The position numbers were made by a program, and so were the translations under genes. Positions 3,670-17,057 of a stretch of 53,879 nt of DNA are shown here, piece by piece. This DNA comes from Cytophagales bacterium Ga0077538 (lineage in GTDB: Bacteria > Bacteroidota > Bacteroidia > Cytophagales > Cyclobacteriaceae), in the NCBI GenBank assembly GCA_001464155.1, contig LNEN01000219.1, forward strand, positions 1 to 53,879, given 5' to 3'. Below the pieces are notes generated by a model, which was not told the origin of the DNA, made no database searches, and was given only the letters and a program-made list of their open reading frames with translations. Position 1 is the first letter of the stretch, and every line of letters starts with the position of its first letter.

Positions 3670-3709
3670 TGAACGATTGTTAGTTCGTTTAGCTCGCCAT
3701 AAAAACAAA

Positions 3710-3739
3710 CCGCCCCGACACATTGCTGCATCAGGGCGG
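3710..3739 (-). terminator. Putative attenuator hairpin upstream of leuC
   Basis: Minus strand CCGCCCTGATGCAGCAATGTGTCGGGGCGG followed by TTTGTTTTT; about 9-bp stem with one wobble, 40 nt before the leuC ATG. Confidence 0.7.
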
Positions 3740-3850: not shown

Positions 3851-5146
3851 CTAACTATTCAGTACGATTTTTTTGAAGGATCCATAATTGGAAGAGCAGG
3901 AAATGCTTTTTTTCTCTCTTGATAAAAAGCGCTGCAACGAATCAGGAATAGTAACGGGTTGTAGAATGACCGGCTCCACCACTTCCAGAAATTTGGAGGG
4001 ATGCGCTGTTTCTAAAAAAACACCTGTATACTCCGAATTATTTTTGAGAAATGCCTTAAGGCCTAAATATCCAACAGCACCATGTGGATCTAATACATAG
4101 TTGCTATGCTTCATCACGTCCTGCATTACTTTTTTTGTTTCATCATCGCTAAAGGAAAAGCCACTGATACTTTCTCTCATTCGTTCCCAATCATTACTAA
4201 AGAGATCCAACATACGAGAAAAATTACTGGGGTTGCCTACATCCATGGCATTGCTGATAGTAGAAAAGGAAGCATGAGGTGTGAAGACTCCTTTATTTAA
4301 ATAGGTGCACACGCTATCGTTCTTATTAGTGGAGGCCACAAAATGATGAATGGGTAATCCCATTCGTTGAGCGATGAGGCCCGCGGTGAGGTTTCCAAAA
4401 TTTCCACTGGGTACTGAAAACACCACACGTTCTTTATTTATGAGTCGCGACCACGCATAGAAATAATAAAACATCTGTGGAAGAAGTCGTGCAATATTGA
4501 TGGAGTTCGCAGAAGTCAGGAAGAATTGCTTATTGAGGTCAGCATCTTGAAAAGCTGTTTTCACCAAATGTTGACAATCATCAAAGGTGCCATCGACTTC
4601 AATGGCGGTAATGTTGTTACCAAGTGTGGTGAATTGTTTTTCTTGCAGCGCACTAACCTTACCGGAAGGATATAGGATGATCACGCGTACATTAGGAACA
4701 TTATAAAAACCATTGGCTACAGCACTGCCCGTATCACCGGAAGTAGCCACGAGCACCGTCACCTCTTTCTTTTGCTCTTTTGCAAAATGCTGCAGGAGTT
4801 GTGCCATAAAACGAGCGCCAAAATCCTTGAAGGCGAGCGTGGGACCATGAAAGAGCTCCAGTGCAAAAACATTCTCTTCTATTTTTACTAAGGGAGCATC
4901 GAAGGTGATGGTCTGGGCAATTATTTTTTCAAGCTGATCTTCTCCAATTACATTTTCTACATAAGGCTTGACAACCGCGAAAGCTATTTCAGCAAATGGT
5001 AAGGTCTGAGCTCGTTTAAAAAACTCCGGAGGCAGCGTAGGAATTTGTTCAGGCATGTACAAACCACCGTTCGGAGCAAGACTGTGTACAACTGCCTCGC
5101 GCAGACTGACCAAATGCTTCTTATCTTTTGTATTATAAAATTTCAT
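3851..5146 (-). CDS. thrC: Threonine synthase
   Basis: GPTLAFKDFGARFMAQLL, ATSGDTGSAVANGF PLP-enzyme motifs. Confidence 0.96.
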   Translation of the reverse strand: MKFYNTKDKKHLVSLREAVVHSLAPNGGLYMPEQIPTLPPEFFKRAQTLPFAEIAFAVVKPYVENVIGEDQLEKIIAQTITFDAPLVKIEENVFALELFHGPTLAFKDFGARFMAQLLQHFAKEQKKEVTVLVATSGDTGSAVANGFYNVPNVRVIILYPSGKVSALQEKQFTTLGNNITAIEVDGTFDDCQHLVKTAFQDADLNKQFFLTSANSINIARLLPQMFYYFYAWSRLINKERVVFSVPSGNFGNLTAGLIAQRMGLPIHHFVASTNKNDSVCTYLNKGVFTPHASFSTISNAMDVGNPSNFSRMLDLFSNDWERMRESISGFSFSDDETKKVMQDVMKHSNYVLDPHGAVGYLGLKAFLKNNSEYTGVFLETAHPSKFLEVVEPVILQPVTIPDSLQRFLSREKKSISCSSNYGSFKKIVLNS

Positions 5147-5150
5147 GCGC

Positions 5151-6086
5151 TTACGATCCAATTATTTTTGCACCCAATGTATTGACGGATGAGATGAAGA
5201 CATCAGAGGCTAAGTGTATAGCCGCGAATTCTTTTTCCATGGCAACGCTTACTTTTCGAGCTGTTGAAATTCCCTGGCATAGAGCAAAGAGTGTAGGACC
5301 AGAACCAGAGATTCCGCATCCCAGTGCTCCAGCTTCGAGGGCAGCACTTTTTACCTGATAGAAATTTGGTATAAGTGGAGCGCGCATAGGTTCTGCCACA
5401 ACATCTGTCAACGAGCGACCAATTAACTCATAATCACTCTTCATCATCCCGGCCACAAGCGCTGCCGTGTTGGCCCATTGAGTGATGCCATCTTTTAATG
5501 AGATGCTTGGTTTTAAAACCTGTCTTGCATCGCGTGTTTTTATTTCAATGTGCGGGTGGACCAGTACACAAACCAGCTCCTTTGGTGTAGGAATGCTAAT
5601 CACATCCAGCGGATCATTTTGACGAACTAAAATCAAGCCACCCAATAAGCTCGGGGCGGCATTATCAGCATGAGCGGCACCACAGGCAATGCGTTCCGCC
5701 TCCATCACAAAGGGCAACAAGTCTTTTCGCTGAAGAGGTTCGTTCATTAGTTTGTTTACCGCCACAACTGCCGCCACAGCACTGGCTGCACTCGAACCAA
5801 GCCCACTGCCCAGGGGCAAGTTTTTGTGCAGCACAAGATCTATGCCTTGCGAACTATGGATGTGCTTTAGAAATTCCAACACCGCTACGCCCGCAGTATT
5901 TTTATCAGCTTCACGAGGAAGCAAACCCTTATCGCCTAAAATATTGTTGACAACCACCCGGTTGCTGTTATTAAAGGAAGCTTCTACAACATCTCCTGGA
6001 TTATCCACCGCAAGCCCCAGTACATCAAAGCCACAAGAAACATTCCCGATGGAAGCGGGAGCAAAGGCTTTTATAGTTTTACTCAT
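5151..6086 (-). CDS. thrB: Homoserine kinase (start set at MSKTIKAFAPASIGN)
   Basis: GHMP kinase motif PLGSGLGSSAASAVAAV; CGISGSGPTLFAL. Confidence 0.96.
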   Translation of the reverse strand: MSKTIKAFAPASIGNVSCGFDVLGLAVDNPGDVVEASFNNSNRVVVNNILGDKGLLPREADKNTAGVAVLEFLKHIHSSQGIDLVLHKNLPLGSGLGSSAASAVAAVVAVNKLMNEPLQRKDLLPFVMEAERIACGAAHADNAAPSLLGGLILVRQNDPLDVISIPTPKELVCVLVHPHIEIKTRDARQVLKPSISLKDGITQWANTAALVAGMMKSDYELIGRSLTDVVAEPMRAPLIPNFYQVKSAALEAGALGCGISGSGPTLFALCQGISTARKVSVAMEKEFAAIHLASDVFISSVNTLGAKIIGS

Positions 6087-6120
6087 GATTAAATCATTAA
6101 TTGTAATCTGTTGGTTTGAT

Positions 6121-6157
6121 CCTGTCGAAACCGTCTTCGACAGGCTCAGACTGACAA
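6121..6157. repeat. REP-like palindromic intergenic element
   Basis: CCTGTCGAAaccgtcTTCGACAGGctcagactgaca; 9-bp perfect inverted repeat between thrA and thrB. Confidence 0.65.
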
Positions 6158-6162
6158 CAAAC

Positions 6163-8559
6163 TTAATTCGAATAATTACCAATTCGAATAACATCTGCAA
6201 ATACTCCTGCAGCGGTAACCTCTGCTCCTGCTCCTGGACCCCGTACCACTAAAGGTCTTTCTCTGTATCGCTCTGTGGTAATGAGTATAATGTTATCACT
6301 AAAGGCTTTGTTGTTTTCAACGATAGCCTTGTAACGCAATTTTTCATTTTTCGAGGTAGCGGTTTGCAAAAGCGAATCAAAATACTGATCGTGTTGTTGA
6401 AGTTGTGTGAAAAACTCATCGATTGATTGAGCAGATTGACAATCTTCAGGCACAAGATTCTGTACGCTAATATCAGACAATTCTAAAGAAGCTCCTGTTT
6501 CCCGAGCGAGGATTAGAATTTTGCGAGCTACATCCATTCCACTTAAATCATCGCGGGGGTCGGGTTCGGTATAACCTTTTTCTTTGGCCTCTTTCACAAT
6601 AGTGCTAAAGGCCTTCTCTCCGTTAAATGAACTGAAAATAAAATTCAGCGTTCCACTGAGCACACCTTCAATCTTAAGAATCCGGTCTCCACTTAACAGG
6701 AGATCATTAAGGGTGTTGATAATAGGAAGTCCCGCCCCCACATTCGTTTCATATAAAAATTTAGCACCACTCTTTTTAGCAAGTGATTTCAATTGTACGT
6801 ACTGTTCGTGCGAGGCTGAGTTTGCTTTTTTATTAGGAGTAACTACTGATATGCTGGCAGCTAAGGCCTGTTCATAGAGTTTTGTAACTTCTTCACTGGA
6901 GGTACAATCTATGAGGATGCTATTGGGCATGTTTAACTGTATCAAAGTATCGACATAAGAAGTCAATTCCATTGACTGTGAGGATTGAGACAGAGCTGCT
7001 TTCCATTGAGACAGATCAATACCATCCATTTGGAAAAACATTTTTTTGCTATTGGCAAGTCCAATAAGTCGAACGTCTAAATGATGATCAGTGAGTAATT
7101 TTTTTGCTTGTTGTTGAATTTGTTGAAGGAGGGTTCCTCCCACCAGACCAGTGCCAATCAAAAACAAATTGATGGTTTTAGTATCGGAAAGAAAGAAGGC
7201 ATCGTGCAGTACATTAACAGCTTTCGCGATATCAGCCTGACGCACCACTGCCGAGATGTTGCGTTCAGAAGACCCCTGTGCAATGGCGATTACATTAATG
7301 CCATTTTTGCCAAGAGCATTGAACATTCGTCCACTGCTGCCTGGGTGATGTTGCATACTATCACCCACAATGGCCAGAATGGAAAGATCTGTTTCGACAG
7401 AAACCTCATCAATCAGTGCCTCTCTTATTTCATGACTAAACTCTTTTTCCAGCAATTTTTTGGCAAGTTTGGCGACTCCACTTTCTACTGCAATGCAAAT
7501 CGAATGTTCGGAGGACGCCTGGCTGATCAGAATGACATTTATTTTCTCACTTGCTAATGATGAAAACAAACGCATGGAAACACCCACCACTCCGACCAGG
7601 CCGCTTCCTTGTACATTGAGCAGACTGATGTTATTCATGGAGGAAATACCTTTGATCAATTTTCCATTAGTATAAGAGGCGGAAATCTTGGTGCCTCGTA
7701 CCTCTGGATTAAATGTGTTTTTTATCCAGATGGGGATTTGATGTTCCATGGCAGGCTTCATCGTAGCAGGGAAAATCACTTTGGCACCAAAGTGTGAGAG
7801 CTCCATGGCTTCTTCATAACTGAGCTCTGGAACTGGGAAGGCTTTCTTAACTAAACGAGGATCCGCAGTCATCATCCCATCCACATCTGTCCAGATTTCT
7901 AGTGAACTCGCCTGCAAAGCGCCTGCGAAAATGGCAGCTGTATAATCGGAACCGCTACGTCCGAGCGTTGTAGTTTCACCACCTTCTGTTGAGCCTATAA
8001 AACCCGTGATAATTTGAGTGGAAGTGTGGTGTTTAAAATGTTGTTGTATGAGACGATTGGTGATTTCGAAATCCACTTTTGCATAACCAAAATGAGTGTC
8101 GGTACGAATGACATCGCGAGCATCCAGAAATTCAACGTCAAGACCCTCTGCTTTAAAGGCCTCACTAATGATGTAAGCTGATAAACGTTCACCAAAACTC
8201 ATGATGTAATCAAGTGTTCGTGTAGTTCGCTCCTTCACCAGGCAAACACCCTGTAAAACATTTTCTAATTCGTTAAATTGAATTTTTACTTGTGCGAGTA
8301 CACCACTTTGTGTATTGACAGGAAGTAAGCTTCGTACAGTTTCCAGATGCCTTGCTTCCAGTGCTGTTAGAATTTTTTTGAATTCATTATCTCCAGCAAG
8401 GGCCAGCGAGCTTAAGTGTATCAGCTGATCAGTAACACCACCAAAGGCAGAAAAGACAAGCGAGACATCACCACTCAAAGATGGTTTGACAATTTCAATG
8501 ATTGATTTTATACGTTCAGCGGAGGCGGATGAGGAGCCTCCGAATTTTATGACTTTCAT
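6163..8559 (-). CDS. thrA: Bifunctional aspartokinase / homoserine dehydrogenase
   Basis: KFGGSSSASAERI aspartokinase N-terminus, ACT region, GTGLVGGTLLQQI and GVLSGTLNFIFSSF homoserine dehydrogenase motifs. Confidence 0.97.
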   Translation of the reverse strand: MKVIKFGGSSSASAERIKSIIEIVKPSLSGDVSLVFSAFGGVTDQLIHLSSLALAGDNEFKKILTALEARHLETVRSLLPVNTQSGVLAQVKIQFNELENVLQGVCLVKERTTRTLDYIMSFGERLSAYIISEAFKAEGLDVEFLDARDVIRTDTHFGYAKVDFEITNRLIQQHFKHHTSTQIITGFIGSTEGGETTTLGRSGSDYTAAIFAGALQASSLEIWTDVDGMMTADPRLVKKAFPVPELSYEEAMELSHFGAKVIFPATMKPAMEHQIPIWIKNTFNPEVRGTKISASYTNGKLIKGISSMNNISLLNVQGSGLVGVVGVSMRLFSSLASEKINVILISQASSEHSICIAVESGVAKLAKKLLEKEFSHEIREALIDEVSVETDLSILAIVGDSMQHHPGSSGRMFNALGKNGINVIAIAQGSSERNISAVVRQADIAKAVNVLHDAFFLSDTKTINLFLIGTGLVGGTLLQQIQQQAKKLLTDHHLDVRLIGLANSKKMFFQMDGIDLSQWKAALSQSSQSMELTSYVDTLIQLNMPNSILIDCTSSEEVTKLYEQALAASISVVTPNKKANSASHEQYVQLKSLAKKSGAKFLYETNVGAGLPIINTLNDLLLSGDRILKIEGVLSGTLNFIFSSFNGEKAFSTIVKEAKEKGYTEPDPRDDLSGMDVARKILILARETGASLELSDISVQNLVPEDCQSAQSIDEFFTQLQQHDQYFDSLLQTATSKNEKLRYKAIVENNKAFSDNIILITTERYRERPLVVRGPGAGAEVTAAGVFADVIRIGNYSN

Positions 8560-8626: not shown

Positions 8627-8702
8627 GATCACGTACCTCCTGGAGGGCGGTGAGGATTAGAGTTTCTGAACGGGGATTCCCGTAATGGTTGTGGACGTGA
8701 TC
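8627..8702 (-). promoter_or_regulatory. Structured thrA leader element
   Basis: Outer inverted repeat GATCACGT...ACGTGATC enclosing ACGGGaatcCCCGT and CCTCC-AGGAGG hairpins; overlaps a Thr/Ile-rich reading frame. Confidence 0.45.
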
Positions 8703-8825
8703 AAGGAGTGATGGGTAAAAGGGCTATTTCGTAGCGCGCTTACGAAGTAAGCAAGCGGAGAAATCCCCTGGATATATAAAGGTCGAGGAGGCTTCTCACT
8801 TCGCTTTGCTTCGTTCGAAGTGAGG

Positions 8826-10076
8826 TTAGATAAGATACTCAAAAAGGTTTTCATGTTGATTGACAACGGTATAGTTCAATTCGTAATGATCCATTCGTCC
8901 AATAAGCAAGGCAAAATCTTCACGAGATTTTACTTCAATGCCTATAAGGGCCGGACCGGTCTCTTTATTGTGTTTCTGAATGAACTCAAAGCGAACAATG
9001 TCATCCGATGGACCTAAAATATGATTCACAAATTCTTTTAAAGCACCTGGCCGTTGGGCAAAGCGAACAATGAAGTAATGTTTTAGACCTTCGTACAACA
9101 AGGATCGTTCTTTAATCTCCTGCATTCGGTCGATGTCATTATTACCACCACTCACTACACAAACAACCTTCTTACCCTTAATCTGATTGGCATATTGATC
9201 TAAGGCAGCGATGGAGAGTGCTCCTGCTGGTTCAGCTACAATGGCATCTTCATTATACAACTGAAGAATGGTGGAGCTTACTTTGCCCTCGGGCACTAAG
9301 AGCATATCACTCAACATTTCTTTACAAAAGCTGAAAGTGATATCGCCCACCTTTTTTACCGAAGCGCCATCTACAAATCGTTGTATTTTTTCAAGAATAA
9401 CAGGCTTGCCCGCTTGTAAGGCTGCCTGCATGGAGGGTGCTCCACTAGGTTCGGCTCCTATAATGTGGGTATGCGGTGAAAAGGTTTTAAAATAATGTCC
9501 AACACCCGCACATAAACCCCCGCCACCCACAGGAACAAAGACATAATCAATGTTGCTCTGCTCCTCCAATATCTCTTTAGCAACTGTCCCCTGTCCTTCA
9601 ATTATTTTTAAGTGATCGAAGGGAGGAATAAAGACGGATTCTTTTTCTATGCAAAACTTAAGTGCATGAGCCTGACACTCATCAAAAGTGTCACCAATCA
9701 ACACTACTTCAACATGAGTGCCACCAAACATTTTTACCTGATTGATTTTTTGTTTGGGCGTGATGGCGGGCATGTAAATAACGCCCTGAATGTTCAGCGC
9801 TTTGCATGAATACGCAACACCTTGTGCGTGGTTACCGGCACTCGCACAAACAACCCCTTGCTTTCGCTCTTCTGCTGTCAAACTCTGAATCAGATTGTAA
9901 GCACCTCGTATTTTGTACGAGCGCACCACTTGAAGATCCTCCCGCTTTAAGTACACGTCAGCATTAAACTTTTCGGAAAGTTTGCGATGATACTGCAAAG
10001 GAGTTTTGAGGACTACCTTTTGTAGGAGTTCGTGTGCTTTATTTACATCTATGATATGCTGATTAAGGGTTATCAT
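8826..10076 (-). CDS. ilvA: Threonine dehydratase (threonine deaminase)
   Basis: YLKREDLQVVRSYKIRGAYN, SAGNHAQGVA, VPVGGGGLCAG. Confidence 0.96.
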   Translation of the reverse strand: MITLNQHIIDVNKAHELLQKVVLKTPLQYHRKLSEKFNADVYLKREDLQVVRSYKIRGAYNLIQSLTAEERKQGVVCASAGNHAQGVAYSCKALNIQGVIYMPAITPKQKINQVKMFGGTHVEVVLIGDTFDECQAHALKFCIEKESVFIPPFDHLKIIEGQGTVAKEILEEQSNIDYVFVPVGGGGLCAGVGHYFKTFSPHTHIIGAEPSGAPSMQAALQAGKPVILEKIQRFVDGASVKKVGDITFSFCKEMLSDMLLVPEGKVSSTILQLYNEDAIVAEPAGALSIAALDQYANQIKGKKVVCVVSGGNNDIDRMQEIKERSLLYEGLKHYFIVRFAQRPGALKEFVNHILGPSDDIVRFEFIQKHNKETGPALIGIEVKSREDFALLIGRMDHYELNYTVVNQHENLFEYLI

Positions 10077-10136
10077 TCTAGTTGATGATTGACAAGGGAT
10101 AATTGACAATTGTCAACTGTCCATTGTTAATTAGTT

Positions 10137-11204
10137 TTAGTTTATCATCGATGCCTCTACTTGTTGTTTCTCTGGTCGTAAGGCACGTACTGCAGCTCCT
10201 GCTTGCCACAATTCACTCTCGCGGAGTTCTTTTAACTCTTCTGCTAATTTTTCGCGATAGTCGGGTTTACTGCAGGTCTCAATGGTACGTTGAGCCTCTT
10301 TACCCGTGGCTACACTTTCGTAGAGTTCTTTAAATACTGGAAGTGTGGCAGCTTTAAATTTCTTTTTCCAGTCCAATGCTCCTCGTTGTGCTGTGGTGGA
10401 ACAGTTGGCATACATCCAATCCATACCATTTTCGGCAACAAGCGGCATTAAACTCTGTGTAAGTTCTTCAACCGTTTCATTGAAGGCTTCGGAAGGTGAG
10501 TGACCTTTAGAGCGAAGCACCTCATACTGTGCTTCAAAAATTCCGGCAATGGCACCCATTAAGGTTCCACGCTCACCGGATAGATCTGAATACACTTCTT
10601 TTTTGAAATCCGTTTCGAAGAGATAGCCGGATCCAACACCAATACCTAGCGCGATTGCTTTCTCTTTTGCTTTGCCAGTAGCATCTTGAAAAATTGCGTA
10701 GCTGGAATTAATTCCTTTGCCTTGTAAAAATAATCTGCGAACAGAAGTTCCAGAGCCTTTGGGAGCGGCCAGCACCACATCCACATCGGCTGGTGGAATT
10801 ATTCCCGTTTGTTCTTTAAATGTGATGCCAAAACCATGGGAGAAGTATAGGGTTTTCCCTTTTGTAAGAAATGGTTTAATCGTTGGCCACGCTGCAATTT
10901 GTCCCGCATCGGAAAGCAGGAATTGAATGATGGTTCCACGACTGGCAGCCTCTTCTATATCAAACAAAGTTTCTCCTGGGATCCATCCGTGTTCTACTGC
11001 TTTGTTGTAGGTCTTGCATTTACGTTGACCAATGATCACGTTGAAACCATTATCGCGAAGGTTTAATGCTTGTGCGGGCCCCTGTACACCATAGCCGATG
11101 ATGGCAATGGTTTCGCTACGTAAAACATCCAATGCTTTATCCATCGGAAATTCTTCGCGGGTTACTACTTCTTCTACGGTTCCACCAAAATTGATTTTTG
11201 CCAT
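10137..11204 (-). CDS. ilvC: Ketol-acid reductoisomerase
   Basis: IIGYGVQGPAQALNLRDNG, SDLSGERGTLMGAIAG. Confidence 0.97.
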   Translation of the reverse strand: MAKINFGGTVEEVVTREEFPMDKALDVLRSETIAIIGYGVQGPAQALNLRDNGFNVIIGQRKCKTYNKAVEHGWIPGETLFDIEEAASRGTIIQFLLSDAGQIAAWPTIKPFLTKGKTLYFSHGFGITFKEQTGIIPPADVDVVLAAPKGSGTSVRRLFLQGKGINSSYAIFQDATGKAKEKAIALGIGVGSGYLFETDFKKEVYSDLSGERGTLMGAIAGIFEAQYEVLRSKGHSPSEAFNETVEELTQSLMPLVAENGMDWMYANCSTTAQRGALDWKKKFKAATLPVFKELYESVATGKEAQRTIETCSKPDYREKLAEELKELRESELWQAGAAVRALRPEKQQVEASMIN

Positions 11205-11246
11205 GGTTTTAATTGTTAGTTATCGGTTATGAGTTAATTGTATGGT

Positions 11247-11561
11247 TTAAAAGGATGATGTAACTACTTTGTTGTGCGCTAAAGAGTGAGTGAAGAGTGA
11301 TTCAAGATGTAGTGTGTCTGCTTCGTAATAAATCGCACTTTCCACTTCAATCAGCTTTTCTAATTGTTGTTTTACTTTTTCGATCATCTCAGGCGTTGTG
11401 TGTAACAGCATAGTGGCACCACCCTTTCTAAAATTTTCTTCGTTTTCGTGCGCAATCAGTTTTTTAATGCGTACTCGTCTGCGGTTAAGCACATTGATCA
11501 TGCGGTTGAGTACGGAGAAATTATTGTCCGCCAATACTTCGATGATGAAATCTGTTCTCAT
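11247..11561 (-). CDS. ilvN: Acetolactate synthase small (regulatory ACT) subunit
   Basis: ACT-like sequence FIIEVLADNNFSVLNRMINVLNRRRVRIKKL; 4-bp overlap with ilvB. Confidence 0.85.
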   Translation of the reverse strand: MRTDFIIEVLADNNFSVLNRMINVLNRRRVRIKKLIAHENEENFRKGGATMLLHTTPEMIEKVKQQLEKLIEVESAIYYEADTLHLESLFTHSLAHNKVVTSSF

Positions 11562-13315
11562 AGTCTTTGTGAGGGTTCTAATAATATTTCTGCTACTCCA
11601 GCACCCGTAGGCACCATAGGAAAAACATTTTCTTCTTTCTCCACCACCACTTCAAGAAGATAGGGTCCTTGGTGCGCCAACATCTCCCGAACAGCGTTTC
11701 GCAGTTCATGTCGTTCTGTTATCTTTTTAGCAGGTATGTTGTATGCCTCCGTTAAGGCTACAAAATTGGGGTTCTTCATTTCTGTGAAAGAGTAGCGCTT
11801 ATCAAAAAACAATTGTTGCCATTGACGTACCATACCCAGAAAGTTGTTATTCAACAGAACAATTTTTACCGGGATGTTGTATTGCATGATGGTGCCGAGC
11901 TCCTGTACGGTCATTTGAAAGCCACCATCGCCAATTACTGCAATTACTTCTTTATTCTTTTCTCCCAACTTGGCCCCCATGGCAGCAGGCAAGGCAAAGC
12001 CCATTGTACCGGCACCTCCAGAAGTAATATTGGTGCGCGGATTTTTAAACTTGAAATACCGTGAAGCTACCATCTGATGTTGACCCACATCTGTTACGAG
12101 TATGGCTTCACCTTTTGTTTGTTCAGTGAGTTCATTCACCACTTCGCCCATTAGTAATTCTTTGCCGAGTGGATGAAAAGCAAACTGAACCACTTTTTCA
12201 TGTTCCTTTCGGGCCGCCTCATGAAATAAATTAATCCATTCACTATGGGAGTTCTTCTTTACAAGCGGCACTAAAGCAGATAAGGCATCTTTCGCATCGG
12301 CATGTATAGGCACTTCTGCTTTTACAATTTTGTTGAGCTCCGCTTTATCAATGTCAATATGAATGATGCGAGCCTGTTTGGCATACTTACTTACATTTCC
12401 AGTTACGCGATCATCGAAGCGCATGCCGACTGCTATGAGCACATCACACTCATTGGTTAATACATTGGGGCCATAGTTTCCATGCATACCCAAATAACCA
12501 ACATACAGAGGATGCGAAGTGGGGATGCAGGAAAGTCCTAACAAGGTGGAGGCAACAGGAATGCCTGTTTTTTCTATAAACTGCTTTAGTTCTTCTGAAG
12601 CATTACCCAACAATATTCCTTGTCCTGCTAATACATAGGGCCGCTTCGCTTGATTGATCAGCGCTGCTGCTTCTTGGATTTGACTATGATCGAGTGTTGG
12701 TTTGGGAGAATAGGTGCGAACCTGAGCACAAGGCTTGTACTCAAAATCATCGATCATTTCAAATTGAGCATTCTTGGTAATGTCAATTAACACAGGTCCG
12801 GGTCTTCCGCTTCGCGCGATGTAAAATGCCTTGGCAACCTGCTCCGCAATAGAACCTGCTTCTGTAATTTGAACATTCCATTTTGTTACGGGCAAGGTTG
12901 TGTTGATCACATCCATTTCTTGAAAGGCATCTGTGCCCAGCAAATGTTCTCCTACTTGCCCTGTAATACACACAACAGGAGTCGAGTCGATTGCGGCATC
13001 GCCTAAACCTGTAACCAGATTTGCGGCACCGGGTCCAGAAGTGGCAATAGCCACTCCCACTTTTCCCGTAGCCCGTGCATAGCCTTGTGCTGCATGAATA
13101 GCTCCTTGTTCATGCCGCACTAAAATGTGATTCAGTTTATCGGCATACGAATACAAGGCATCGTATACAGGCATAATGGCCCCGCCTGGATATCCGAAAA
13201 GCACATCAACACCTTCAGCCACCAAACATTGCAACAAGGCTTCTGAACCTGAGATTTGTTTCACTGGCCTTAATGCATTCAGTTGGTCTTCAATCTTCGT
13301 CAGTAACGCATCCAT
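11558..13315 (-). CDS. ilvB: Acetolactate synthase large subunit
   Basis: [52 protein letters not shown] motif. Confidence 0.97.
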
Positions 13316-14975
13316 CGGCCGCTGTTTTTACTTGTTGAGCATATTTTTTTAAAACACCTTGGGTGGCGCGCAAGGCGGGTTGTTTCCAGTGTGCTTTTCT
13401 TTTGTCGATCACAATGGCGTCTACCAGTAAATTCATTTCATGTTTTAGAATATCGATTTCAATGATGTCCTCATCCTCCACAAGTGCCAGCAAGCCACCG
13501 TCAAATGCTTCAGGAGTGACGTGACCAATCACAAAGCCATGAGAGCCTCCGGAAAATCTTCCATCGGTAATAAGCGCGACTGACTTTCCTAAACCGGAGC
13601 CCATAATCAAGCTCGTGGGCTTCAACATCTCCGGCATGCCGGGTGCTCCTCGTGGACCGACATAGCGTATCACTACAACATCTCCTTCTTTTATTTTTCC
13701 GGATTTGATTCCATCTACTAATTCAAACTCTCCATTGAACACACGGGCTGTACCCTTAAAGCGCTCGCCTTCTTTACCGGTAATTTTTGCCACCGAACCT
13801 TTAGGGGCCAGGTTACCATAGAGTATTTGTAAATGCCCGGTTGTCTTGATTGGATTTTCTACGGAACGGATAATGTCCTGACTTTCGAAATTGATGGAAG
13901 GAATATCCTTGAGGTTTTCTGCTACTGTTTTTCCGGTAACGGTTAAGCATTCCCCGTGAAGAAATCCTTTTTCCAACAAATACTTCATCACTAAGGGTGT
14001 GCCTCCGATTTTATGAAGGTCCTCCATTAAATATTTTCCGCTTGGTTTTAAATCGGCCAACAAGGGTGTCTTGTCTGAGATGTGTTGAAAATCTTCTTGT
14101 GTAATAGCCACCCCAACAGTTTTGGCCATCGCGATTAAATGCAAGACTGCATTGGTCGAACCACCCAATACGGTGATGATGGTTATAGCGTTCTCAAAAG
14201 CCTGTCGCGTCATGATGTCGCGCGGCTTGATATCTTTCTCCAGTAAATGGACTATTGCTTTTCCGGCAGTGATACATTCAGCGGATTTATCTTTGCTTAA
14301 GGCAGGATTGGAAGAAGAATAAGGTAGTGACATACCAAGTGCTTCAATAGCAGAAGCCATGGTGTTGGCGGTATACATACCACCACAAGCACCGGCACCC
14401 GGACAAGAATTTTGGATGATGCCTTTAAAATCTTCCTCCGAAAGTTTGTTGGCGAGTTTTTCTCCCAATGCTTCGAAAGAGGAAACAATGTTGAGCGCTT
14501 TTCCTTTCCAATGCCCACCGGCAATGGTGCCACCATATACCATAATGGCAGGGCGATTTAATCGACCCATGGCCATTACCGAGCCGGGCATATTTTTATC
14601 GCAACCGACCACCGCAATCAAGGCATCATAGTACTGAGCACCACAGACGGTCTCAATGGAATCTGCAATTACTTCGCGACTTACCAACGAGTAACGCATG
14701 CCTTCTGTGCCATTGCTAATACCATCACTCACACCGATCGTGTGAAAGATCAGACCCACAAGTTCATTACCCCATACGGCTGACTTCACCTCTTGAGCAA
14801 GAGCATTTAGGTGCATGTTGCACGTGTTACCATCAAAACCCGTACTCACAATCCCGACCTGAGCCTTAGTAAGATCGTGTTCAGTGAGACCGATCCCATA
14901 CAACATCGCTTGTGATGCAGGCAATGAAGGGTCTTGTGTAATGGTGCGACTATATTTATTTAAAGCGGTATTCAC
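13290..14975 (-). CDS. ilvD: Dihydroxy-acid dehydratase
   Basis: [63 protein letters not shown]. Confidence 0.97.
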
Positions 14976-15039
14976 TTTTTGAGTGTTTCTAGAATATTTC
15001 TTCTTTGTAATCTTGATACTTACGTCTCACTACTTAAGT

Positions 15040-15927
15040 CTAAATCAACACATGACTAAAACTTTTCTCCAATACTAAATTTTTATAAGCCTCCTGAATA
15101 ATCGGTCCGTGTGTATTCTTCCAACTTTTTGCAAACGGTTTTCCTTCAATAGATTCGATGCCCACTACTTCTGCGGCCGTTCCGCAATAAAAAGCACCAT
15201 CCGCTTCGGCTAATTCTTCTGGCTTTATTTTCTTTTCGAATACGGGAATATCCAGCTCTTTGCAGATTTGTAAAACCGTATGCCGTGTGATGCCTGGAAG
15301 AATGTGACCTAATGAAGGAGTGAAGAGCACACCGTCTTTTTCCAAGAAGAAATTAGCACCAGGCCCTTCGGCTACATTGCCTTCCATATCCAGCATCAAT
15401 GCTTCATCAAAACCACGCTGCTTGGCTTCACTGGTGGCCAGAATGGAGTTTACATAATGCCCGCTTACTTTGGCTTCAATGCGAATCGATTTTGGGTTGG
15501 GACGTTGATAGGATGAGATGCATAAACGCAAATTTTGATCTCCTAAATATTTTCCCCACTCCCAAGCACAAATCATGAGGTAAACTTCTTTGGGAGAAGT
15601 GAGCGACATGTTGGGGGAACAATAGACCAAAGGACGGATGTACGCATCACTAAAATTATTTTTGCGCAATACCTGATAGCTGATTTGCTCTAGTTCTTCT
15701 ACACTGTAATGAAAGGGGATGCCAACTAATGCACAACTTCTTTTAAGACGCTCATAGTGTTCTTCAGCTTTGAAAATCTTAACGCCATTAACGGTTTGGT
15801 AGGCACGAATACCTTCAAACACTCCGTAGCCATAGTGAAGGGACTGTGCGTATAAATCGGTGGAAGCCTCTTTTGCTTTTACATAGCTTCCGTTGTGAAA
15901 GATGATGGTGTCGTTGGTGTAGTACAT
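15040..15927 (-). CDS. ilvE: Branched-chain amino acid aminotransferase
   Basis: HYGYGVFEGIRAY, GFDEALMLDMEGNVAEGPGANFF. Confidence 0.96.
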   Translation of the reverse strand: MYYTNDTIIFHNGSYVKAKEASTDLYAQSLHYGYGVFEGIRAYQTVNGVKIFKAEEHYERLKRSCALVGIPFHYSVEELEQISYQVLRKNNFSDAYIRPLVYCSPNMSLTSPKEVYLMICAWEWGKYLGDQNLRLCISSYQRPNPKSIRIEAKVSGHYVNSILATSEAKQRGFDEALMLDMEGNVAEGPGANFFLEKDGVLFTPSLGHILPGITRHTVLQICKELDIPVFEKKIKPEELAEADGAFYCGTAAEVVGIESIEGKPFAKSWKNTHGPIIQEAYKNLVLEKSFSHVLI

Positions 15928-15970
15928 TTTTAAACAATCGTTAGTTTGTGTTGGTATGTATAAAATGAAA

Positions 15971-15994
15971 CCGTCCCGCTTGTGGGCGGGACGG
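15971..15994 (-). terminator. Attenuator-type terminator hairpin upstream of ilvE
   Basis: CCGTCCCGC-ccacaa-GCGGGACGG followed by TTTCATTTTA; 9-bp perfect GC-rich stem. Confidence 0.75.
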
Positions 15995-16024
15995 CTTCAG
16001 TATAATGTCTATTTATAATGTCGC

Positions 16025-16135
16025 TTATCCGCCCGTTGGGGTTAGAATAATAATGACTAGCACAATCACAATACGCGTTTCAACCGTTAGAACGGCTGTG
16101 CGCAAAAAGTTTGTTATTGTAGAAAATGTGCTCAT
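16025..16135 (-). CDS. Putative ilv leader peptide MSTFSTITNFLRTAVLTVETRIVIVLVIIILTPTGG (36 aa)
   Basis: Small ORF with a run IVIVLVIIIL directly upstream of the terminator hairpin; below the ORF-track length cut-off. Confidence 0.75.
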   Translation of the reverse strand: MSTFSTITNFLRTAVLTVETRIVIVLVIIILTPTGG

Positions 16136-16163
16136 GTTATTTTGTTGCTGATGCAATTGTGAT

Positions 16164-16203
16164 AAAATAATTTCGAGAATTCAACCTTTCGTGAAATTAT
16201 TTT
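16164..16203. other. AT-rich inverted repeat
   Basis: AAAATAATTTC...GAAATTATTTT, 11-bp perfect arms. Confidence 0.5.
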
Positions 16204-16359
16204 TCAATAAATCAGACTGAACGATTGTTCGTTAAGAAGAAAAGCTTGATATAAAAGCAGTACACGAAGCATCGTACTCGGCCTGCAGAACAGTTCTAGA
16301 ATGATGACTGGATACAATAGATAATAGAGTATAATTTTCTTTGTTGTAGCTGTGCTCAT
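16204..16359 (-). CDS. Small ORF, 51 aa, Leu/Ile-rich, unknown function
   Basis: MSTATTKKIILYYLLYPVIILELFCRPSTMLRVLLLYQAFLLNEQSFSLIY; upstream of the ilv leader on the same strand. Confidence 0.3.
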   Translation of the reverse strand: MSTATTKKIILYYLLYPVIILELFCRPSTMLRVLLLYQAFLLNEQSFSLIY

Positions 16360-16514
16360 TTTTATAAATGTGATTCTACCCTTAAGAAGCCTGTTGCGTT
16401 AGCGGATAGTAATAATCATCAACAACTACTTATCCATCATTTGCAGGGTGTGAGCCAGGCTCTTCCCATCATTATCTGTTCAATAAAATACCTACATTTC
16501 GAAAACACTCACTC

Positions 16515-17057
16515 ATGAAAAACATCATACTCTCCTTGTTGCTTACAATACTCACGCAAATGACAGGCATTGCTCAAACGGAGTTTGTTTGTCTTCCCTG
16601 CGGCTACTCCTGCGATCAAGCAGTTCATAAAGGGCCGGGCGTGTGCTCTTCCTGCAATATGAAATTGGTGGAAAAATCAACCGTCACCTTTAAGAATATT
16701 GGAGTGGAGGAATTTTGTAAGCGTATCGCAACAAATGCAGAAGTGATTATTTTGGATGTGAGAACACCAGAAGAATTTTCGGGTAGTGAAAGGGAAGTAC
16801 CTTCCTTTGGACATTTTAAGAATGCGATTAATATTAATGTGAACGAACTGGAGAGTCGGTTGAAGGAGTTAGAGAAGTTCAAAAACAAAGAGGTGTTGGT
16901 GTATTGCAGTCACAGTCACCGCAGTCCAAGAGCGAGTTATCTCCTCAACACAAAGGGCTTTACCAATGTTAAAAATTTGTCAGGTGGAGTTTCAACCTTT
17001 GCAAATAATAAGGATACAGGCTATTTAAAAAGCACATTTGTTTTTCACGAAAAGTGA
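16515..17057 (+). CDS. Exported heavy-metal-binding domain plus rhodanese-like domain protein
   Basis: Signal peptide; FVCLPCGYSCDQ...GVCSSCNMKL; rhodanese ILDVRTPEEFSG...VLVYCSHSHRS. Confidence 0.8.
   Translation: MKNIILSLLLTILTQMTGIAQTEFVCLPCGYSCDQAVHKGPGVCSSCNMKLVEKSTVTFKNIGVEEFCKRIATNAEVIILDVRTPEEFSGSEREVPSFGHFKNAININVNELESRLKELEKFKNKEVLVYCSHSHRSPRASYLLNTKGFTNVKNLSGGVSTFANNKDTGYLKSTFVFHEK

Follow-up and report, generated by a model that had tools for sequence, protein, structure and literature searches.

A probable leader-peptide attenuator before the ilvE gene run of a Cytophagales bacterium, with related elements across Bacteroidota

Genes and features at the ilvE locus

The window analysed here, that is, the whole stretch of 53,879 nucleotides (53.9 kb) from Cytophagales bacterium Ga0077538, carries a run of amino acid biosynthesis genes in which ilvE, ilvD, ilvB, ilvC and ilvA, then thrA, thrB, thrC and leuC, are named by NCBIfam. 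The small gene between ilvB and ilvC (104 aa), whose product has no NCBIfam match at 1e-20, is taken as ilvN from where it lies and from its conservation; downstream of leuC come leuD, leuB and the first part of leuA. The closest named genome, Chryseotalea sanaruensis, belongs to the same genus as the window, and its ilvE is 86% identical. Before ilvE we find a short leader ORF, a hairpin with a U-rich tail and a palindromic box, which are listed with their parts in Table 1. The stop codon of the leader and the start codon of ilvE are 97 nt apart; the hairpin begins 25 nt past the stop and leaves 38 nt to the ilvE ATG.

Table 1. Features of the ilvE leader region and of the genes behind it
Feature	Coordinates	Strand	Remarks
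ilvE, first gene of the regulated run	15040..15927	-	NCBIfam TIGR01122 above cut-off
ilvE-ilvD-ilvB-ilvN-ilvC-ilvA run, most likely regulated unit	8826..15927	-	NCBIfam equivalogs for 5 of 6 genes; gene order same in relatives
Leader peptide ORF, 36 aa, MSTFSTITNFLRTAVLTVETRIVIVLVIIILTPTGG	16025..16135	-	Sequence; same-genus homologue; alignment in 13 close relatives
Control codons 22-31, ATT GTG ATT GTG CTA GTC ATT ATT ATT CTA (I V I V L V I I I L)	16043..16072	-	Sole such run in six frames of the window
Region 2 (predicted antiterminator 5' half), GGGCGG, final codons of leader ORF	16029..16034	-	Pairs with region 3; swap test; footprint folding
Region 3 (predicted antiterminator 3' half), CCGCCC, overlaps terminator 5' arm and loop	15984..15989	-	Swap test; footprint folding
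Intrinsic terminator: 14-bp stem, 6-nt loop, then TTTTATA	15966..15999	-	GC core, tail and position invariant in relatives
Palindromic box ACTAACGATTGTT, between terminator and ilvE start codon	15933..15945	-	Candidate operator or other second-layer signal
Second box copy (AACGAACAATCGTT), upstream of leader	16220..16233	-	One mismatch
Box copy before leuC, after hairpin	3672-3684	-	Exact ACTAACRRTYGTT

The leader ORF opens with the ATG at 16135 and closes with TAA at 16027-16025 on the minus strand, and the sequence agrees with the first-pass annotation, made from the letters alone, in its 36 codons and its ten-residue run of Ile, Val and Leu. The six frames of the window hold no other run of at least 10 such residues. 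Forty order-1 Markov copies of the window yield none, and among 2000 copies made of the local region the share with such a run is 0.05%. The run consists of 5 Ile, 3 Val and 2 Leu and holds no Thr. Both of its Leu codons are CTA, which makes up 6.2% of the Leu codons in the genes of the cluster; this choice is not kept at the leader Leu codons among 13 aligned close relatives. A same-genus relative has the homologous leader ORF MNTFLTITKLMQTSNLTFVTRLVIVLVIIILQPSGG. At the gathering threshold Rfam has no match in the window, its best hit at a relaxed threshold being an unrelated sRNA (E 0.79), and the three leaders tested have no match in Pfam. Since the Pfam and Rfam leader models tried do not match such leader ORFs, automatic annotation probably overlooks them.

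Terminator and competing pairing

The perfect 9-bp GC stem that had been read before ilvE is present, although the full stem is longer, comprising 14 bp with the 9-bp stretch as its core; the hairpin has a folding energy of -26.3 kcal/mol and is followed by the tail TTTTATACAT. When the region 15800-16550 is shuffled 50 times, a scan for U-tailed hairpins returns a mean of 0.5 such sites, and the leader RNA folds 6.8 sd below its dinucleotide shuffles. Regions 2 and 3 are exactly complementary, as the first-pass annotation noted in proposing a competing antiterminator, and folding predicts both the terminator and this 2:3 pairing. We folded the nascent RNA under the assumption that a ribosome covers 12 nt from the first base of the A-site codon. 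With the ribosome at any codon from 22 to 30 the probability of 2:3 pairing is 1.0, and beyond codon 32 it is zero, so that in this model the switch changes state just where the sensed run ends. The same calculation over 131 elements gives 0.95 for the stalled ribosome and 0.02 for the ribosome at the stop codon. At equilibrium the full-length terminator is favoured (P 0.99) even with region 2 free, thus the decision between the two structures would have to be kinetic, as is usual for attenuators.

The four-segment plan of the trp and ilvGMEDA type, in which a 1:2 hairpin competes with 2:3, is not found in the window: no 1:2 pause or protector hairpin is predicted, and the probability of pairing between region 2 and the upstream leader is 0.0. 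This absence is not universal, the corresponding mean over the 131 elements being 0.24. In the window the antiterminator is predicted also without a ribosome (P(2:3)=0.99) and, given that no protector is predicted, an untranslated leader should read through.

These parts suggest the following course of events. RNA polymerase would transcribe the leader, closely followed by a translating ribosome. When charged tRNA-Ile, tRNA-Val and tRNA-Leu are ample, the ribosome would pass codons 22-31, reach the stop codon and mask region 2. This would leave the terminator's 5' arm free, so that the hairpin would form and transcription would end ahead of ilvE. If charged tRNA runs low, the ribosome would stall within the run, region 2 would pair with the CCGCCC of the emerging 5' arm, the terminator would not form in time, and ilvEDBNCA would be transcribed. 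Ribosome stalling, premature 3' ends and readthrough at the ilvE leader are what we infer.

Conservation across Bacteroidota

A strict scan, which asks for a short ORF with at least 7 Ile, Val or Leu in 10 codons followed by a U-tailed GC hairpin, finds the element in 72 of 83 regions upstream of ilvE in the same family and order. Among 80 loci of named genomes, which include Flavobacterium, Pedobacter, Chitinophaga, Chryseobacterium and Aequorivita, 59 have it no more than 700 nt upstream of ilvE; the two sets share a few genomes. Over both strands of the 2.85 Mb around the 80 named loci the scan gives 107 matches, and 87 of these fall in the 700 nt ahead of ilvE, which make up about 2% of the DNA scanned. 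A relaxed scan for at least one Ile/Val/Leu-rich short ORF with a terminator upstream of ilvE succeeds at 149 of 163 loci, which come from Cytophagales, Flavobacteriales, Sphingobacteriales and Chitinophagales. An alignment of ilvE upstream regions in related Bacteroidota, by which the first-pass annotation had proposed to judge the element, shows the peptide frame and the stem to be conserved. Among 13 close relatives the GC core, the TTTTATA tail and the GG at region 2 are invariant while the N-terminus of the peptide drifts. Over the control codons the leader frame has a mean of 8.0 Ile, Val or Leu per 10 residues, and the other frames 3.9 and 0.4. The spacing is also kept: the gap from leader stop to hairpin is nearly fixed at 21-29 nt (10th to 90th percentile), and the last control codon lies a median of 9 nt from region 2.

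The pairing between the end of the ORF and the 5' arm of the terminator is specific to each locus. Over 131 distinct elements it averages -15.5 kcal/mol with the element's own arm, compared with -10.4 kcal/mol when arms are swapped among loci and -7.6 kcal/mol when region 2 is shuffled; none of 5000 permutations matches the own-arm mean (z -20.7). The elements have common ancestry; the swaps, however, include close relatives, and this makes the test conservative.

Two other readings of the leader were weighed against these results. The hairpin might end an upstream transcript, with an ilvE promoter between hairpin and start codon and the short ORF incidental; the 38 nt before the ATG do hold a well-conserved box (ACAAACTAACNNTTGT), and leuC too is preceded by a hairpin with this box behind it. 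The gene upstream of the leader (16515-17057) is however on the opposite strand, hence the hairpin would have no upstream operon to terminate, and no Bacteroidota-type promoter (TTG-N16-23-TAnnTTTG, at most one mismatch in the -7 box) is found in 15928-16600; a sigma-70 promoter scan gave nothing convincing either. With the Ile/Val/Leu ORF, its frame, its spacing and its specific antiterminator pairing conserved across the phylum, we consider this reading very improbable, and the promoter presumably lies upstream of the leader. Still more improbable is that the ORF acts chiefly at translation, by coupling or reinitiation at ilvE or as a functional hydrophobic small protein, with the hairpin of minor importance. 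The peptide is indeed hydrophobic, and leader ORFs may boost downstream translation through reinitiation (PMC4833913); yet a 14-bp U-tailed hairpin lies in the 97 nt between leader stop and ilvE start, and in relatives the peptide varies from 17 to about 56 aa, with a variable N-terminus, only the Ile/Val/Leu run and the complementary end being retained.

On the whole, the locus shows a cluster of codons for the pathway products in a short ORF, as read from the sequence, an intrinsic terminator between this ORF and the first structural gene, a predicted exclusive antiterminator whose 5' half a ribosome would mask, and downstream genes that make the sensed amino acids (ilvE, ilvD, ilvB, ilvC and ilvA, NCBIfam above cut-off). 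A ribosome-mediated transcription attenuator for branched-chain amino acid (BCAA) synthesis very probably lies before ilvE. It is strongly supported by the sequence, by the conserved peptide frame, terminator and spacing, by the self-specific 2:3 pairing and by the predicted switch geometry. The first-pass proposal of a candidate attenuator controlling ilvE and genes behind it finds strong support in the conservation and in the self-versus-swapped pairing.

Tandem elements in relatives

The window has a single element. In relatives, the relaxed scan calls two elements in tandem before ilvE in 47 loci and three in 15. About five of the tandem calls are false (L085, L164, L168, L175 and L176): they resemble the ends of upstream coding genes and were not counted as attenuators. 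Triple leader-terminator units were observed upstream of ilvE in L104, L111, L113, L115, L118, L119, L121, L125, L126, L128, L130, L139, L141 and L172, among which L141 is the ilvE locus of F. psychrophilum with its three elements in tandem. In Flavobacteriia the last two units are often near-identical Ile leaders, for example MTTNTIIIISIIIRSFE. Apparent Leu-rich first leaders in some relatives (MHLKTEKKCTIQLLFLLLLLRV in L143 and L148, a similar one in L166) are not taken as Leu sensors; by their sequence we read them as the Ile leader MYNSIIISSIIIAGV in a different frame. In the open-access literature, to which our search was confined, we found no report of tandem ilv arrays in Bacteroidota. 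These natural arrays of one, two and three units are a material in which the input-output behaviour of serial attenuators could be measured.

A palindromic box and a possible second layer

Most of the ilvE-proximal box block (ACAAACTAAC, TTGT) is invariant in the 13 relatives. The genome holds three exact copies of the box ACTAACRRTYGTT: one precedes ilvE, another precedes leuC, and the third (C283) falls within a coding sequence and was set aside. We regard the box as a candidate operator of a putative BCAA regulator. It is conceivable that control is dual, in that the attenuator works but the main BCAA response goes through a DNA-binding regulator at AAC-N4-GTT boxes, which flank the attenuator and stand also before leuC. 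Two of the three exact copies before ilvE and leuC, the one-mismatch copy upstream of the leader and the near-invariance of the ilvE-proximal box fit such a scheme. Against it, the regulator is hypothetical, and the exact box is not found beyond the group of the window whereas the attenuator is; moreover, dual control is compatible with the attenuator, to which it would add a layer. We consider a main response through such a regulator rather unlikely, and the attenuator remains our reading of the ilvE leader with or without it.

Extent of the regulated unit

The first-pass annotation placed the whole downstream cluster under Ile/Val/Leu/Thr tRNA charging. This goes too far: the sensed run contains no Thr, thrA is preceded by a Thr/Ile leader-like sequence of its own, leuC has its own GC hairpin and box, and the thr genes are missing from the run in relatives including one of the same genus. 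Chryseotalea sanaruensis, and likewise two further relatives that have both blocks, show the order ilvEDBNCA-leuCDBA, with no thr genes in it. In the window thrABC stands between ilvA and leuC (3851-8559, minus strand), an arrangement that those three relatives do not have; in some other genera thrA seems, from the match coordinates, to share a contig with ilvE and to lie downstream of it.

The Thr/Ile-rich short ORF before thrA (8657-8704, minus strand) starts with TTG and reads MITSTTITGIPVQKL. Its counterpart in relatives is a conserved thrA leader that ends in IITG and a stop codon at ATTACGGGGTRAYCCGT, which in many of them is followed by CTCCAGGAG; the exact motif is present in 15 of 198 genomes of the family. 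In the relatives L184-L196 the stop codon was observed to lie inside a GGG/CCC hairpin, and the copy in the window looks altered at the stop codon. Neither a U-tailed terminator nor an Rfam match was found for the thrA leader in the window and L184-L196. Upstream of leuC there is a GC hairpin with a T-rich tail (3710-3739, minus strand), present also in three relatives; a leucine leader was sought before leuC in the window and these three relatives, and none was found. The thr and leu genes may thus be under separate control, and the regulated unit is most safely, and most likely, ilvE to ilvA.

Discussion and comparison with known systems

The ilvE attenuator is ordinary in kind and well supported, and leader-peptide attenuation has already been reported in the phylum. 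Its interest lies in that classic ribosome-mediated attenuation of BCAA synthesis appears widespread in a phylum whose regulation is little studied, and in that the exact codons and bases for mutation at the ilvE leader are now given. A more general view can be offered tentatively, as somewhat less probable than its contrary: BCAA attenuation in Bacteroidota would often be two-state, without a protector and with readthrough by default if the leader is untranslated, and multiplied into tandem arrays of two to three units, to which the Cyclobacteriaceae group of the window would add the box common to ilvE and leuC that points to a BCAA regulator. If this is true, tandem leader-terminator units would multiply the response.

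Some amino acid attenuators were reportedly predicted in Bacteroidetes/Chlorobi in a comparative study by Vitreschak and colleagues in 2004. In E. coli the ilvGMEDA leader (IlvL) is a short ORF with a run of Ile, Val and Leu codons, followed by an intrinsic terminator before the ilv genes and a competing antiterminator. The element described here has the same plan of ORF, terminator and antiterminator, but in another phylum, with another peptide and with ilvE as first gene. The proteobacterial architecture invoked in the first-pass annotation holds in principle, though not in detail, there being no predicted 1:2 protector and no match to Pfam or Rfam leaders. From the predicted folding, an untranslated leader in the window should read through rather than be super-attenuated.

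Within the phylum, transcriptome data from F. psychrophilum had led to the inference of leader-peptide attenuation upstream of amino acid operons (PMC9723704), likewise with a short peptide before biosynthesis operons; the main-text section of that account on the subject does not name an ilv element, an antiterminator test or a tandem array. The Corynebacterium ilvBNC operon is a BCAA operon with uORF-dependent attenuation (PMC10272879, PMC11857589), but it belongs to Actinobacteria, begins with ilvB and is treated in these papers as a three-hairpin attenuator. Finally, the leader region of Salmonella mgtCBR contains two leader ORFs, each tied to stem-loops (PMC3641672). These tandem attenuators are comparable with the tandem elements of the relatives, the window having one element; they serve, however, an unrelated operon outside amino acid biosynthesis, while the copies in Bacteroidota are often near-identical Ile leaders.
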